From NCBI RefSeq assembly GCF_003987015.1, contig NZ_PIPQ01000006.1, positions 1-64,000 on the forward strand: 64,000 nt of DNA. Direction: 5' to 3'. The stretch is from Aliidiomarina taiwanensis. GTDB lineage: Bacteria; Pseudomonadota; Gammaproteobacteria; Enterobacterales; Alteromonadaceae. Shown in pieces: positions 1,405-63,103 of the stretch. A program made the translations under genes and the position numbers. Position 1 is the stretch's first letter; every line of letters starts with the position of its first letter. The notes under the pieces were generated by a model, which saw only the letters and a list, made by a program, of their open reading frames with translations, searched no databases and was not told where the DNA came from.

Positions 1405-2394
1405 TTAGTCGTTTTCTAACAAGCTTGCTGGCGGCCAGTTCTCTAGGCGCATACCTAGTGAAAGTCCACGTGATGCAAGCACATCTTTGATTTCTGTTAG
1501 TGACTTCTTACCTAAGTTAGGAGTTTTCAATAACTCAACTTCGGTACGTTGTACTAGATCACCAATATACTGAATCGCTTCTGCTTTTAGACAGTTTGCA
1601 GAACGAACAGTCAGCTCCAGATCATCGACCGGACGCAACAGAATCGGATCAAACTCTGGCTTTTCTTCTTTCTCTTCAGGTTCGCTCTTATCGCGTAACT
1701 CAACAAAGGCATCTAACTGTTCAGCTAGAATTGTTGCTGCGCGACGAATTGCTTCTTCAGGATCTAGAGTACCATTGGTTTCCATATCGATAACCAACTT
1801 GTCTAGGTCTGTACGTTGTTCAACACGAGCTGAATCAACAGTATAAGCAACACGCTCTACTGGGCTGAAAGAAGCGTCTACCAGAAGGTGACCAATCGAA
1901 CGACCTTCATCGTCATTCTGCTTGCGTACGCTTGCAGGGACGTAACCGCGACCTCGTTCAACTTTAAGTTGCATTTTCAGTTCAGTGTCACCGGTCAACG
2001 TACAAATAACGTGATCAGGATTAACAATCTCAACATCACCGTCAGTTGTAATATCACCTGCAGTTACAACGCCCGCGCCTGATTTACTTAAAGTTAACAC
2101 GGCTTCATCTTTGCCATGTAGAATTACAGCGAGACCTTTAAGGTTGAGCAGGATTTCAATGATGTCTTCCTGGACACCCTCTTTCGTGCTGTACTCATGC
2201 TGTACACCGTCTATTTCAACTTCAGTTACGGCACAACCCGGCATTGAAGATAAAAATATACGGCGAAGCGCATTACCCAGCGTATGACCAAAGCCACGTT
2301 CAAGCGGCTCCAACGTTACCTTAGCGCGGTTGGTGCTGATTTGCTCGATTTCAACGAGACGTGGTTTTAGAAATTCGGTTACAGAACCCTGCAT
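1405..2394 (-). CDS. rpoA: DNA-directed RNA polymerase alpha subunit
   Basis: A 329-residue alpha subunit, the same length as in E. coli. The N-terminal dimerisation and assembly domain (about residues 1-235) scaffolds beta and beta-prime. An acidic linker ([12 protein letters not shown], about 237-248) connects to the C-terminal domain. That domain carries the [13 protein letters not shown] motif, whose arginine (about 265) contacts UP-element DNA. This fits the AT-rich UP-like tracts upstream of the rrn promoters in the same window. It lies in the alpha operon between rpsD and rplQ, the standard order. Confidence 0.98.
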
Positions 2395-2419
2395 TATGTC
2401 CCCTCTTTATGCTGAGGCC

Positions 2420-3040
2420 TTACTTAGAGTAAAGCTCTACGATCAACTGTTCGTTAATATCTGCAGACAGGTCAGTGCGTTCTGGAATACGTTTGAAAGT
2501 GCCTGACATTTCTTTCGTATCCACTTCGACCCAGATTGGCTTCTCACGCTGTTCAGACAGCTCAAGAGCAGCTGCAATACGTGCTTGCTTTTTCGCTTTT
2601 TCGCGAACGCTCACTACGTCTTCCGGCTTTACCTGGTAAGAAGGAATATTTACTACGCGACCGTTAACTACAATACCTTTGTGACTTACCAACTGACGTG
2701 CTTCAGCACGCGTAGAGGCAAAGCCCATACGGTATACTACGTTATCGAGACGACTTTCTAAAAGGACAAGAAGGTTCTCACCTGTGTTACCTTTTAAACG
2801 AGCAGCTTCTTTATAGTAGTTACGGAATTGCTTTTCCAGCACACCGAACATACGACGTACTTTCTGCTTTTCACGTAACTGAACGCCGTAATCAGACAGG
2901 CGGCCACGACGGGCACCGTGCTGTCCTGGTGCAGTTTCCAATTTACATTTGGAATCTATTGCACGCACGCCGCTTTTAAGGAACAAGTCTGTTCCTTCGC
3001 GACGACTTAGTTTGAGTTTTGGACCCAAATATCTAGCCAT
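2420..3040 (-). CDS. rpsD: 30S ribosomal protein S4
   Basis: A 206-residue S4 (starts [20 protein letters not shown]), the normal bacterial length. S4 is a primary 16S rRNA binder that nucleates assembly of the 5' domain, and contains an S4 RNA-binding domain (about residues 96-160, [20 protein letters not shown]). There is no zinc-binding cysteine set at the N terminus, so it is the zinc-free form. In E. coli S4 represses the alpha operon by binding the rpsM leader. Here the predicted leader is short (about 40 nt), so the same control is not assured. Confidence 0.98.
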
Positions 3041-55958: not shown

Positions 55959-58055
55959 TTACATATTTTCCAGTGCTTCAACGCGAAATAGCAGGTCACC
56001 CCAGCTCAAAATACTATAATTCGGCTGAATGGATATGACCCTTAACCCTTGCAGCTGTTCGCCTTCTGCCAATCGCTGCTGCCCTAACCCTATCCACCGT
56101 GCTTCCGGCCTAGACTGGTATACATGTTGGTCGTAACTTAATTTGGGTAACTGCTGCCGCTGCTCTGCAGTGAGCTCTGACAGCAAGGGAACACCTTGTT
56201 GCTGCGCAGGCATTTGCTGTGTTGGTTCATCAAGGTCAAAGCTCCACCGTGTTTCCGCTGGCCGCTCTGGTGTGGCTCGTACTGCCTGCTCAAAAATCGC
56301 TTCTAGGGTGTCGGCTGTTGCATTGCTGTCTGGTTTTTTGCTGCCCACCTCAGCCTCTGCTATGGGCTCTTCTTGAGCTGCGCTTTCTGGTGCTTGGCTC
56401 ACATGCTCCTCTTGTGGTTCTGTTGGCCAGTGCATGGTAAATGTTGGCACGTGTATGTCTGTAAGCGTTAGCGGGCGGGTGCCGTAACGAACTTGCTCGG
56501 CTATTTGCGACTCCTCCACAAGTGGGCGCTCGCTTGGGTAGTCTTCCACAGCAACCGAACGCAGTTGCGGCCCTTGGTAGTCGCCTGAGCTTGCTAGTAA
56601 AGCGAAAAGCCACCCATCGTCATCACTTAACCCCTGTGCTGTGTCCATTAACCAAGTACGCTGTTGCTCAATATCGCTTTGTTGCAGCGACAAGGGCACA
56701 CGCTGTTTTAAGCGTGCGCTAACCCAAGTACGCCAGGCTTCCGTATGGGCTTCATTAACAAAAGGAGGTGGGCTAACAAACAGCAAATACTCGCCGCTTA
56801 ACGCGTTTGCAAGCTCTGACTCTGCTACTCTTATTTCACCTTCAGCGTCCTGCAATAACCATTGGTTATTTTGCTGTCCGCGTAATACAACCGAGCCCCC
56901 GTCGTGCAGGAATGCTAAAGCCGGCACATTCAACGTTGAAACATTAGCCAAGTTGGCATGCCCGTGTACACACACCAGGTTGTAACGCGCTAAGCGCTCA
57001 CATGGCTGCTGTCCTAGGCTCATACTTCCTAATTGCCAAAGCGCCGCCAATTTAGATAGGGAGTCTTGTAGCGGCTGGCCATAAATATGGCGGCTGCTTG
57101 TTTGCACTTCTTCAGTAGGCGTAGGCTCGCTCTGTGTTGTCGGCTGTATCGGCACAAACTGCCACATTGCAAAAGCTACCACACCAACAGCAGCTGCCAT
57201 GGCCCATGGCCAGCTTCGCTTTCCTTTAGGTGATGTTTCCTTTGCTTTCGCCAGAGGTAATATATCTGCAGCTTCCTGCATAATGCGCTTGTCAATCTGC
57301 TTACGCCCGCTCATTGCAGCAAGCTGCAGCGCTCTGTCACATAATAAGTTGATTAAGCGTGGCGTCCCTTGGGTCCATTGCCAAATATATTTTCGGGCTT
57401 GCTCAGAAAAAATACTCGGAGCGCCCTGCGCTACTGTCAGTCGGTGGTCTATGTATGCATTGGTTTCTGTTTGGGTGAAGGGCAGCAATTGGTATCGCGC
57501 CACAATGCGTTGTGCCACTTGCCGTAATTCTTGGCGCTGCAGCAACTCTCGTAACTCAGGTTGGCCAATTAACACCACCGAAAGTAGTTTTTTTGCATCG
57601 CTTTCTAGGTTGGTTAATAGGCGCAATTGCTCAAGAGCTGCCGGATATAAGTGTTGGGCTTCATCAATCAGAACCACCGGGTGCTTGCCTGCTTGAGCTG
57701 AAGTCGTAAGAAATGTGGCAATAGCGTCTGTTAGTGACTTTAACGAGTCCGCCTCATCGACACCTTCAATACCAAAGCCTTGGGCTATTGAAGCCAGTAG
57801 CTCTTGCTCAGACAAGCGCGGGTTTAAAATAAACACCACATTTAATTGGTCTTCAAGCTGACCTAAAATCGCTCTTGAAAGAGTTGTTTTACCCGTTCCT
57901 ACCTCTCCGGTTAACAGCAAGAAGCCACCACTCCCCATAAGGCCATGGTGCAAGTGGGCAAGGGCTTCTTGGTGCCGCGGCCCTAGAAATAAAAACCGCG
58001 GGTCAGGAGCTATCGAAAATGGCTGTTGTGTGAACCCAAAAAACGCTTGATACAT
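55959..58055 (-). CDS. ExeA/GspA-type AAA ATPase fused to an ExeB/GspB-like domain
   Basis: A 698-residue protein. Residues 1-270 are an ExeA/GspA/MshM-like AAA ATPase (MYQAFFGFTQQPFSIAPDPR; Walker A GEVGTGKTT 50-58; Walker B VVLIDEAQ 127-134). A lysine-rich stretch and one transmembrane helix follow (about 284-300). The periplasmic part has a middle domain (about 320-480) that may be peptidase C39/peptidoglycan-binding-like, a Gln/Glu/Pro-rich linker (about 540-620), and a C-terminal segment (about 625-698, QLPKLSYDQHVYQSRPEARW, GLRVISIQPN) that resembles GspB/PilP-type domains. ExeAB normally is two proteins that insert the type II secretin through peptidoglycan. No gsp operon is nearby. 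The ATPase is firm; the GspB part is moderate. Confidence 0.78.
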   Translation of the reverse strand: MYQAFFGFTQQPFSIAPDPRFLFLGPRHQEALAHLHHGLMGSGGFLLLTGEVGTGKTTLSRAILGQLEDQLNVVFILNPRLSEQELLASIAQGFGIEGVDEADSLKSLTDAIATFLTTSAQAGKHPVVLIDEAQHLYPAALEQLRLLTNLESDAKKLLSVVLIGQPELRELLQRQELRQVAQRIVARYQLLPFTQTETNAYIDHRLTVAQGAPSIFSEQARKYIWQWTQGTPRLINLLCDRALQLAAMSGRKQIDKRIMQEAADILPLAKAKETSPKGKRSWPWAMAAAVGVVAFAMWQFVPIQPTTQSEPTPTEEVQTSSRHIYGQPLQDSLSKLAALWQLGSMSLGQQPCERLARYNLVCVHGHANLANVSTLNVPALAFLHDGGSVVLRGQQNNQWLLQDAEGEIRVAESELANALSGEYLLFVSPPPFVNEAHTEAWRTWVSARLKQRVPLSLQQSDIEQQRTWLMDTAQGLSDDDGWLFALLASSGDYQGPQLRSVAVEDYPSERPLVEESQIAEQVRYGTRPLTLTDIHVPTFTMHWPTEPQEEHVSQAPESAAQEEPIAEAEVGSKKPDSNATADTLEAIFEQAVRATPERPAETRWSFDLDEPTQQMPAQQQGVPLLSELTAEQRQQLPKLSYDQHVYQSRPEARWIGLGQQRLAEGEQLQGLRVISIQPNYSILSWGDLLFRVEALENM

Positions 58056-58201: not shown

Positions 58202-59326
58202 ATGGAAATTTACTTAGTTGGCGGCGCTGTTCGCGACGAACTATTAGGCTTAGAATTCGATGAGCACGACTATGTTGTGGTGGGCGCTGCAGCTGAAGAG
58301 CTCATTGCGCAAGGCTTTACCCCGGTTGGTAAAGACTTTCCTGTTTTCTTACATCCCGAGACACAAGAAGAATACGCCTTAGCACGTACCGAGCGGAAAG
58401 TAGCGGCAGGCTATACGGGCTTTGAATGCTATGCGCAGCCCGATGTTAGCCTAGAGGACGACTTGCTACGGCGCGATCTCACCATTAACGCCATTGCTAA
58501 AAGCAGCTCAGGTGAGCTCATTGACCCCTGGGGTGGACTTGAAGATATTGAACAGCGCGTGCTGCGCCATGTCAGTCCAGCTTTCAGCGAAGACCCACTG
58601 CGTGTGTTACGTGCGGCTCGGTTTGCCGCCAAGTTACAACCGCTTGGCTTTCACATCGCACCAGAAACCTACACCCTCATGCGGGAATTAGTAGCAGCTG
58701 GCGAAATTCAACACCTCGTGCCTGAGCGAGTGTGGCAAGAGACCGAAAAAGCCCTCAACACAGACGCTCCTAGCGTGTATTTCCAAGTACTACATCAATG
58801 CGGTGCGCTGCACCAACTCCTTACGTTTCCACTGCCAAAGCAAGGCCAGTTTCCATTGCTAACGCAGGTGGCGCAACAGACTAAGCACCCTTTATTGCGC
58901 TTTGCAGCTTGGATAGCAGACCTTGCTCACCCTCCTAGTCAAACACCTCAGGTGCTTACGGCCGTTGCTGGTAGTTTTAAAGCACCAAATGCCTACCTAG
59001 ATATAGCGCGTTTAGCGGGCCTTAGTTTTGATCTACTAGCAAACAGTCACATTACCAGCACCGACGCTTTAGACTTTTACCAGCAGTGCGACGCTTGGCG
59101 ACGGGCTGAGCGATTTGAACAGCTACACACCTTATGCCTGGCCGTTGCAAGCTCAGAAAGCGCGCGCCACCGCGTCCAGCAGTTATTTAGCCCAGTGGCC
59201 AACTTGCGGACCATCAACCCCCAAGCCTTTGTTAAACAAGGGCTCAGCGGAAAAGCTATTGGCCAAGCATTGCGCACACAGCGCAAACAACAACTAGAGG
59301 ATGCATGGGCTGGGGGTTCAATTTAA
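58202..59326 (+). CDS. cca: CCA-adding tRNA nucleotidyltransferase
   Basis: A 374-residue Cca. The nucleotidyltransferase head has GGAVRDELLG, then Glu21-His-Asp23 at the place of the usual metal-binding DxD (E. coli DRD 21-23), DFPVFLHPET and RRDLTINAIA. The body binds the tRNA acceptor stem (EDPLRVLRAARFAA). The C-terminal HD phosphohydrolase motif of E. coli Cca (CHDLGK) is not present, and the protein is about 40 residues shorter. It repairs or adds the 3' CCA end. Divergent from the ExeAB-like gene; convergent with folK. Confidence 0.93.
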   Translation: MEIYLVGGAVRDELLGLEFDEHDYVVVGAAAEELIAQGFTPVGKDFPVFLHPETQEEYALARTERKVAAGYTGFECYAQPDVSLEDDLLRRDLTINAIAKSSSGELIDPWGGLEDIEQRVLRHVSPAFSEDPLRVLRAARFAAKLQPLGFHIAPETYTLMRELVAAGEIQHLVPERVWQETEKALNTDAPSVYFQVLHQCGALHQLLTFPLPKQGQFPLLTQVAQQTKHPLLRFAAWIADLAHPPSQTPQVLTAVAGSFKAPNAYLDIARLAGLSFDLLANSHITSTDALDFYQQCDAWRRAERFEQLHTLCLAVASSESARHRVQQLFSPVANLRTINPQAFVKQGLSGKAIGQALRTQRKQQLEDAWAGGSI

Positions 59327-62009: not shown

Positions 62010-63038
62010 TCACCCAACTTGATCTAGTTTTGAACGGACCGACTGAGGTGAGACAACTCCCGCATCGAGTAGCTTATTCAACGCTTGATCCATTGTTTGC
62101 ATACCTAAGGCTGCACCTGTTTGAATGCTGGAGTACATTTGAGCTATTTTGTCTTCCCGTATCAAGTTTTTAATGGCCGGAGTTGAGAGCATAATCTCGT
62201 GAGCGGCCACTCGCCCACCCCCTTGTTTTTTAATTAATAACTGTGAAATAACAGCCCGCAACGACTCCGACAACATCGAACGCACCATGGCTTTTTCTTC
62301 ACCTGGGAATACATCCACAATTCGGTCAATGGTTTTAGGGGCAGAGGTTGTATGCAAGGTGCCAAATACTAAATGCCCAGTTTCTGCAGCAGTGAGCGCC
62401 AACCGAATGGTTTCCAAGTCACGCATTTCCCCAACCAAAATAACGTCTGGGTCTTCCCGTAGTGCAGCACGTAAGGCTGCGTTAAAGCTGTGGGTGTCTC
62501 GGTGTACTTCGCGCTGGTTAATCAGGCTTTGCTTACTTTCATGCACAAATTCAATAGGGTCTTCAATGGTAAGAATATGGTTGCTATAGGTTCGGTTAAT
62601 ATAATCGACCATTGCCGCCAGAGTGGTCGACTTACCCGACCCCGTCGGTCCTGTCACTAATACTAATCCCCGTGGGTAGTCTGACACTTTCCTCAGCACC
62701 TCTGGCGCGTTTAAGTCTTCAAGTGACAAGACTTTGCTAGGGATGGTACGAAATACAGCCGCAGGCCCATGGCGCTGCATAAACACGTTTACACGGAATC
62801 GGGCCACGCCTTCCAAACTGAAAGAAAAGTCTGACTCAAGCTTTTCTTGAAAGTCGCTTTGTTGCTCAGCGCTCATGATGCTGTGCACCATAGCCAGCAC
62901 CTGTCGCGACTCCAAATTCTCTGTGCTAATCTTCTGAATATCGCCGTCAATACGCAATACTGGCGGAGTGCCAGAAGATATGTGAAGATCAGATGCCCCT
63001 TTTTGAACACTTAATTCGAGTAATTGTTGAAGTTCCAT
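62010..63038 (-). CDS. pilT: Type IV pilus retraction ATPase PilT
   Basis: 342 residues from ATG 63038 ([20 protein letters not shown]), GGAG 5 nt upstream; an 18-codon longer start is rejected. PilT is a hexameric secretion ATPase that depolymerises type IV pili. Walker [12 protein letters not shown], the Asp box ([10 protein letters not shown]), Walker B ([12 protein letters not shown]), the His box ([10 protein letters not shown]) and the AIRNLIRE-like retraction motif (PAIKNLIRE) are all present. Divergent from yggS, the usual pilT-yggS-proC arrangement. No other pilus gene is in this window. Confidence 0.96.
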
Positions 63039-63103
63039 TTTATCTCCAAGCTCAATAAAGATTTGAGAGTCGTTTTTAATACACATCGGCATAACGGAAA
63101 TCT

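Follow-up and report, generated by a model that had tools for sequence, protein, structure and literature searches.

A GspA–GspB fusion protein with a likely role in type II secretin assembly in Aliidiomarina taiwanensis

In this study, a window of 64,000 nucleotides from Aliidiomarina taiwanensis (contig NZ_PIPQ01000006.1, positions 1 to 64,000) was analyzed, with attention to the gene gspAB at 55959..58055 on the minus strand. From its ATG to its stop codon, gspAB encodes a single protein of 698 amino acids (aa) that joins a GspA/ExeA-type ATPase to a GspB homology region. The product is very probably a natural GspAB fusion that helps to assemble GspD, the secretin of the type II secretion system (T2SS). 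This reading was adopted because the chain combines the ATPase and helix of ExeA with the GspB part of ExeB, the genome carries a T2SS, and the pilotins that were sought are absent. The role in secretin assembly is likely by analogy with studied homologues. A first-pass annotation of the same DNA had described a fusion of ATPase, membrane helix, periplasmic domain and GspB-like segment. Its observation was confirmed, and its interpretation was supported by profile searches, a hydropathy scan and hhalign comparisons.

The gene was assigned from the open reading frame (ORF) list, Pfam and a genome search. The frame consists of 698 codons and a stop, is unbroken, and runs from 58055 to 55959; the first-pass annotation gave this extent correctly and omitted the strand. 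Of the 17 genomes of the genus, 12, among them the own genome, have both halves, including the T2SSB domain (PF16537) of GspB, within a single open frame of 700–777 aa. The 11 other fusions showed 40–57% identity to the 698-aa protein over the alignment. Since 12 species genomes share the single-frame form, a chance fusion or an assembly artefact was ruled out. With the own protein as query, both halves were recovered in the same 12 genomes, the frame being matched in two pieces in G001 and G007.

The ATPase domain occupies residues 1–272 (57240..58055, minus strand) and was defined by AAA_22, TIGR03015 and an ATPase tree. AAA_22 matched residues 42–172 with an E-value of 3.4e-26 (Pfam). TIGR03015 matched residues 1–262 at 253.5 bits, under its cut-off of 324.5 (NCBIfam), and identity as an XrtA/PEP-CTERM ATPase was rejected on this score. 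TIGR03015 and NF037978, the GspB equivalog, each matched all 12 fused members at E ≤ 0.001. The motif GEVGTGKT at residues 50–57 (57885..57908, minus), which we take to be Walker A, has seven of its eight positions invariant in the 12 members, T54 being the variable one. In VVLIDEAQ at residues 127–134 (57654..57677, minus), presumably the Walker B region, V127 and I130-D131-E132-A133-Q134 are invariant in all 12. The chain thus has an ATPase with intact nucleotide-binding motifs, followed by a single helix and a C39-like domain, as in GspA/ExeA.

The hydropathy scan placed the single transmembrane helix at residues 285–303 (57147..57203, minus). Among 15 fused proteins, 14 had a membrane segment over the hydropathy cut, always within 280–310 and none elsewhere; the fused protein of G009 had no segment over the cut. 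According to passages of PMC9239104, all GspB proteins have a single transmembrane segment. The N-terminal helix of GspB is absent here, the only helix of the fused chain being that of the GspA part. Therefore, the GspB part is helix-less and anchored through the GspA helix.

The C-terminus had been called GspB-like, and the profiles bore this out. The GspB-derived segment covers approximately residues 579–698 (55962..56321, minus), as defined by hhalign and the NF037978 match. Within it, the homology region T2SSB was found by Pfam and the own-genome search at residues 636–694 (55974..56150, minus); it scored 53.9 bits, above the gathering cut-off of 28.4, with an E-value of 1.4e-14. Residues 560–698 of the 12 members were compared with the C-termini of 14 split GspB proteins, giving an hhalign probability of 99.66 and a pairwise E-value of 2.8e-25, aligned from about residue 580; hhalign E-values here refer to one profile pair and not to a database. 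The closest solved chain by sequence was PDB 4wfw, listed as General secretion pathway protein B, which matched residues 633–696 with an E-value of 0.0024, and with an E-value of 4.2e-7 when the 12-member profile was used.

The periplasmic middle domain of the first-pass annotation was upheld. A C39-like periplasmic GspA domain was recognized by hhalign at approximately residues 325–425 (56781..57083, minus), where C352 and C362 are invariant in the 12 fused members. When residues 320–428 of these members were compared with 21 long split GspA proteins, they matched the C39-like part with a probability of 99.1 and a pairwise E-value of 7.1e-18, and matched the ATPase and peptidoglycan (PG)-binding parts of split GspA with probabilities below 1. 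The Pfam GspA_C39-like model PF21327 itself matched none of the 12 at E ≤ 0.01. The annotation also missed that the PG-binding domain is unrecognizable. Residues 428–512 (56520..56774, minus) stand at the place of the PG_binding_1 domain (PF01471) of split GspA, as judged by hhalign and Pfam. Their hhalign probability was 2.8 against the split PG-binding part and 5.2 against the whole split periplasmic part, and none of the 12 fused proteins gave a PF01471 match at E ≤ 0.01. PF01471 was present in 18 of the 21 long split GspA (E ≤ 0.001), which had been chosen for their long periplasmic part, three of them from the own family. Many split GspA proteins encoded beside cca in sister genera are 303–308 aa long, too short for a periplasmic domain. 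In passages of PMC9239104, the periplasmic part is likewise missing from Alteromonas and Pseudoalteromonas GspA. Because Alteromonas-type GspA is without the whole periplasmic part, PF01471 was not taken as defining GspA. A variable linker rich in Glu, Pro and Ala follows at approximately residues 505–578 (56322..56543, minus; 12-member alignment and hydropathy scan).

The own genome assembly is 2.53 Mb in 29 contigs with a completeness of 99.97%. Its single PF16537 match was gspAB itself. The view that no separate exeB or gspB exists was thereby borne out, and a gspB hidden elsewhere in the genome was rejected. A gsp operon close by had been denied, and no gsp gene was recognized among the ORFs listed at 50–64 kb of the window. 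The proposed check for gspCDE elsewhere located gspC, D, E, F, G, H, I, J, K, L, M and N in a row on contig C12, while gspAB is on C26; the gene names were given by order and similarity, and the prepilin peptidase gspO was not sought. The own GspD scored 531.9 bits for TIGR02517 (cut-off 351.35). The pilotin families PF16549 (AspS) and PF09691 (PulS/OutS), the only two sought, had no match in the 17 genus genomes.

The genome has four secretins, GspD included. The others were named by recognition, and we take them to be MshL (with MshM and MshK), a secretin next to a CpaF-like ATPase ORF, and a thin-pilus-type secretin. The own MSHA locus (L003) has MshK at 50-427, MshL at 424-2100 and MshM at 2048-3010. 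The homology region of split GspB was compared with 11 MshK, giving an hhalign probability of 96.7 and a pairwise E-value of 3.3e-10; the GspC homology region gave 83, and two unrelated controls gave less than 2. From these sequence comparisons, a GspA/GspB-like pair seems to be dedicated to the MSHA secretin. The MSHA locus indicates that proteins of this type also work with secretins other than GspD, and in a genome with four secretins the fused protein could be a specialized paralogue for the MSHA pilus or the thin pilus. This is very improbable. MshM and MshK already adjoin MshL, the ATPase tree groups the fused ATPase with GspA and separates it from MshM (100/100), and the GspB domain matches T2SSB. 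Moreover, G016 keeps GspAB without an MshM match, and no MshL-like secretin was among the matches listed for it.

MshK was also met in the T2SSB searches. An extra weak T2SSB match in G007, G013 and G015, in frames of 123–151 aa, was MshK. In the class draw, weak PF16537 matches occurred on short ORFs in many gammaproteobacteria. All 10 short ORFs examined (L187-L196) adjoin a homologue of the own MshL, and an MshM homologue then follows in nine; the fetched stretch of L195 shows no MshM homologue. These short ORFs were identified as MshK because of the MshL/MshM neighborhood. Separately, a second GspD-like secretin was seen at L185 (G006:C14, 693 aa) and L186 (G026:C1, 682 aa); both score under the cut-off of TIGR02517, and the usual N0 motif is missing from both.

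The preferred reading of gspAB as a T2SS assembly factor suggests the following mechanism, drawn from homologues. The ATPase would be in the cytoplasm, and one helix would span the inner membrane. The C39-like domain, the linker and the GspB homology region would be in the periplasm. As the pore is directed toward the outer membrane, the homology region would keep hold of GspD through its N0 domain, and ATP hydrolysis would play a role. From the single chain and the homologues, a 1:1 stoichiometry of A and B would be expected. We are less sure that the protein, without a recognizable PG-binding domain, serves mainly to tether and chaperone GspD rather than to bind peptidoglycan.

The divergent neighbor cca (58202..59326, plus strand), a tRNA nucleotidyltransferase gene, was named by recognition and marks the syntenic place, recurring beside the loci of relatives. 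A further ORF at 62010-63092 of the window is presumably PilT-like, by recognition. The genus fusion lies beside cca in all 12 genomes. Among the sister-genus gspA loci listed, 8 of 9 are beside cca (five split gspA + gspB and three fused), and L058 is not. Therefore, from the shared cca neighbor, the genus fusion and these eight sister-genus gspA loci were considered orthologous.

The proposed survey of relatives for split and fused forms found both. A T2SSB match was obtained in 45 of 58 relatives (own genome included). In other genera of the family, it was found in 17 of 17 genomes, in frames of 258–565 aa, and both split and short-fused forms occur in sister genera. In a family draw, T2SSB was matched at E ≤ 0.001 in 291 of 295 genomes, 290 of them over the cut-off, and was kept in 52 of 52 sampled genera. 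The four family genomes without a match were G005, G008, G010 and G011, all of the genus; G012 was not drawn. A class draw of 369 genomes gave T2SSB matches in 129, over the cut-off in 99, and the own genome alone had T2SSB in an open frame of at least 600 aa. The related-locus search returned one locus (L036), which matched residues 1–272 only. A tblastn search of the plasmid collection gave ATPase-like partial matches only, none reaching 80% query coverage.

In five of the 17 genus genomes (G005, G008, G010, G011 and G012; loci L128-L132), neither half of gspAB was found with the own protein or T2SSB. In these five, cca adjoins an acyl-CoA dehydrogenase gene with a gap of at most about 0.2 kb and no gspAB ORF, and the locus is otherwise intact. 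GspD was over the cut-off in all 17 genomes, including these five, and gspC to N were found in all 17, with gspI and the gspG of G011 obtained by a separate search. In a GspD tree made by a quick method, the five grouped together with an SH-aLRT of 98, and the 12 fused genomes were their sister group (99). Read from the tree, this fits a loss of gspAB in the ancestor of the five-genome clade. The tree by itself leaves room for the alternative of a split pair lost in the five and a fusion formed later in the 12. Clean absence from five genomes, with PF01471 in none of the 12 members, might also suggest that gspAB is decaying toward loss. Such decay is very unlikely, since 12 divergent species retain the residues of the ATPase motifs and the GspB domain in frames without stops, and PF16537 is retained throughout the sampled family genera as described above.

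Candidates for a replacement of GspAB in the five genomes were considered. A pilotin was rejected, as neither PF16549 nor PF09691 matched. MshM as a substitute was rejected for G005, G010 and G011, where the own protein found no ATPase (E ≤ 0.001). A GspD with its own peptidoglycan-binding domain was rejected in all five, with no such Pfam domain at E ≤ 0.01, and their GspD had no extra Pfam domain. Two substitutions, D55H and D122A (own-genome GspD numbering), are fixed in the GspD of the five (L137, L140, L142, L143 and L144). The first set contained 36 further GspD, of which 35 have D at position 55 and all 36 have D at position 122; D55 falls inside the N0 match at 31–100. On wider sampling, counterexamples were found both ways, and the substitutions were rejected as general marks of a lost GspB contact: the unrelated G037 and G055, without T2SSB, keep both D residues, while G049, with T2SSB, has S at both positions.

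Several results weigh against reading gspAB as a one-chain assembly factor. GspAB is not indispensable in the genus, because five of 17 genomes keep the T2SS operon without it. NF037978 matched residues 562–696 at 42.4 bits, under its cut-off of 100; because this cut-off is unmet, the 698-aa chain was not classed as a GspB in its own right, but solely as a fusion that contains a GspB domain. Single-sequence structure prediction of the whole chain gave a mean pLDDT of 35.8 and was uninformative. Finally, an in-frame GTG at residue 552 (56400-56402, minus) has a Shine-Dalgarno-like stretch upstream and could in principle, judging from the DNA, yield a separate GspB-domain fragment without a membrane helix. 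A second internal GTG, at residue 570, also has such a stretch. Together with the long, variable linker, these starts raise the explanation that a fusion genuine at the DNA level is made as, or processed into, two polypeptides working as separate GspA and GspB. We consider this improbable, as a fragment from 552 or 570 would be without the sole predicted membrane helix.

Differently built fusions were found outside the genus. A short fusion of ATPase, helix, linker and T2SSB, 514–564 aa long, is present in the sister-genus genomes G023, G024 and G027. The family survey gave at least 14 genomes with T2SSB in frames of 537–623 aa, and five of five examined were short fusions. Overall, short fusions occur in the sister genera g8, g9, g12, g330 and g338, with lengths of 514–623 aa. 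T2SSB was found by Pfam in all eight scanned, and PF01471 and PF21327 in none of the eight at E ≤ 0.001. ORF length alone is unreliable, and the fusion claims rest on domain scans or frame reading beside length; a 503-aa T2SSB frame in G366 was rejected as a fusion, its gspA being in a separate frame.

In the ATPase tree, the 15 fused rows need three changes and formed one clade in 0% of 200 bootstrap trees, while the AU test did not reject a single clade of fusions (p 0.068). With the GspD tree, a grouping of all 20 fused-or-lacking genomes in a single clade was rejected (p 0.00038). For the three short fusions, a single clade was compatible with the test (p 0.17). Both trees have long branches. 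Beside these tree results, the long and short fusions differ in domain make-up; at least two fusion events are therefore likelier than a single origin followed by domain change.

A broader interpretation is offered tentatively, as one that may well not hold: in this family, the working core of GspAB would be only the ATPase, the helix and the GspB homology region, with the PG-binding half eroded, two differently built fusions, and one clade that lost the factor but kept the T2SS. If it is true, GspAB would be mainly an ATP-driven tether or chaperone of GspD, and the clade without GspAB would place its secretin in an undescribed way. The passage of secretins through peptidoglycan is still debated. 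The genus provides a natural comparison at one locus, with 12 fused species without a recognizable PG-binding domain against five with a T2SS and without GspAB or the sought pilotins, so the need for the PG-binding part and the ATPase becomes testable. The single chain is also a ready construct for structural study of the A-B complex. What deserves further attention is the unrecognizable PG-binding domain and the clade without the factor; the fusion itself is a modest result.

A literature search of partial coverage recognized no publication on the GspAB of this genus. As a kind, the GspAB fusion is already known, and the present gene is a further example. Vibrio vulnificus EpsAB is a GspA-GspB fusion, and publications describe other, independent GspAB fusions (passages of PMC9239104 and PMC6532946). 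In EpsAB as in the present protein, one frame holds the GspA ATPase together with the homology region of GspB. PDB 4g54, listed as General Secretion Pathway Protein, is presumably the periplasmic domain of EpsAB. It matches the split GspA profile across the C39-like and PG-binding positions (345–539, E 4.1e-36), whereas the 12-member profile misses it at E ≤ 1 and no PG-binding domain is detectable in the own protein. The systems differ further in that V. vulnificus has the pilotin EpsS, while the own genome has no PF16549 or PF09691 match; full secretin assembly in V. vulnificus requires both EpsAB and EpsS (passages of PMC6532946).

In the same passages of PMC6532946, the evidence from Aeromonas hydrophila favors ExeAB as the sole factor needed for assembly of ExeD. 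ExeB binds N0/N1 of ExeD, and the homology region of OutB binds N0 of OutD (parts of PMC6532946 and PMC9239104). A. hydrophila, as described in PMC6532946, resembles A. taiwanensis in having the ATPase and GspB domains and no GspS pilotin homologue. ExeA and ExeB are two chains, with ExeA binding peptidoglycan, whereas the present protein is one chain with an unrecognizable PG-binding domain. The short sister-genus fusions share the frame of ATPase and T2SSB, but differ in their length of 514–623 aa and in being without PF21327 and PF01471. The split gspA-gspB pairs beside cca in sister genera have the same locus and partners as gspAB, but as two genes.
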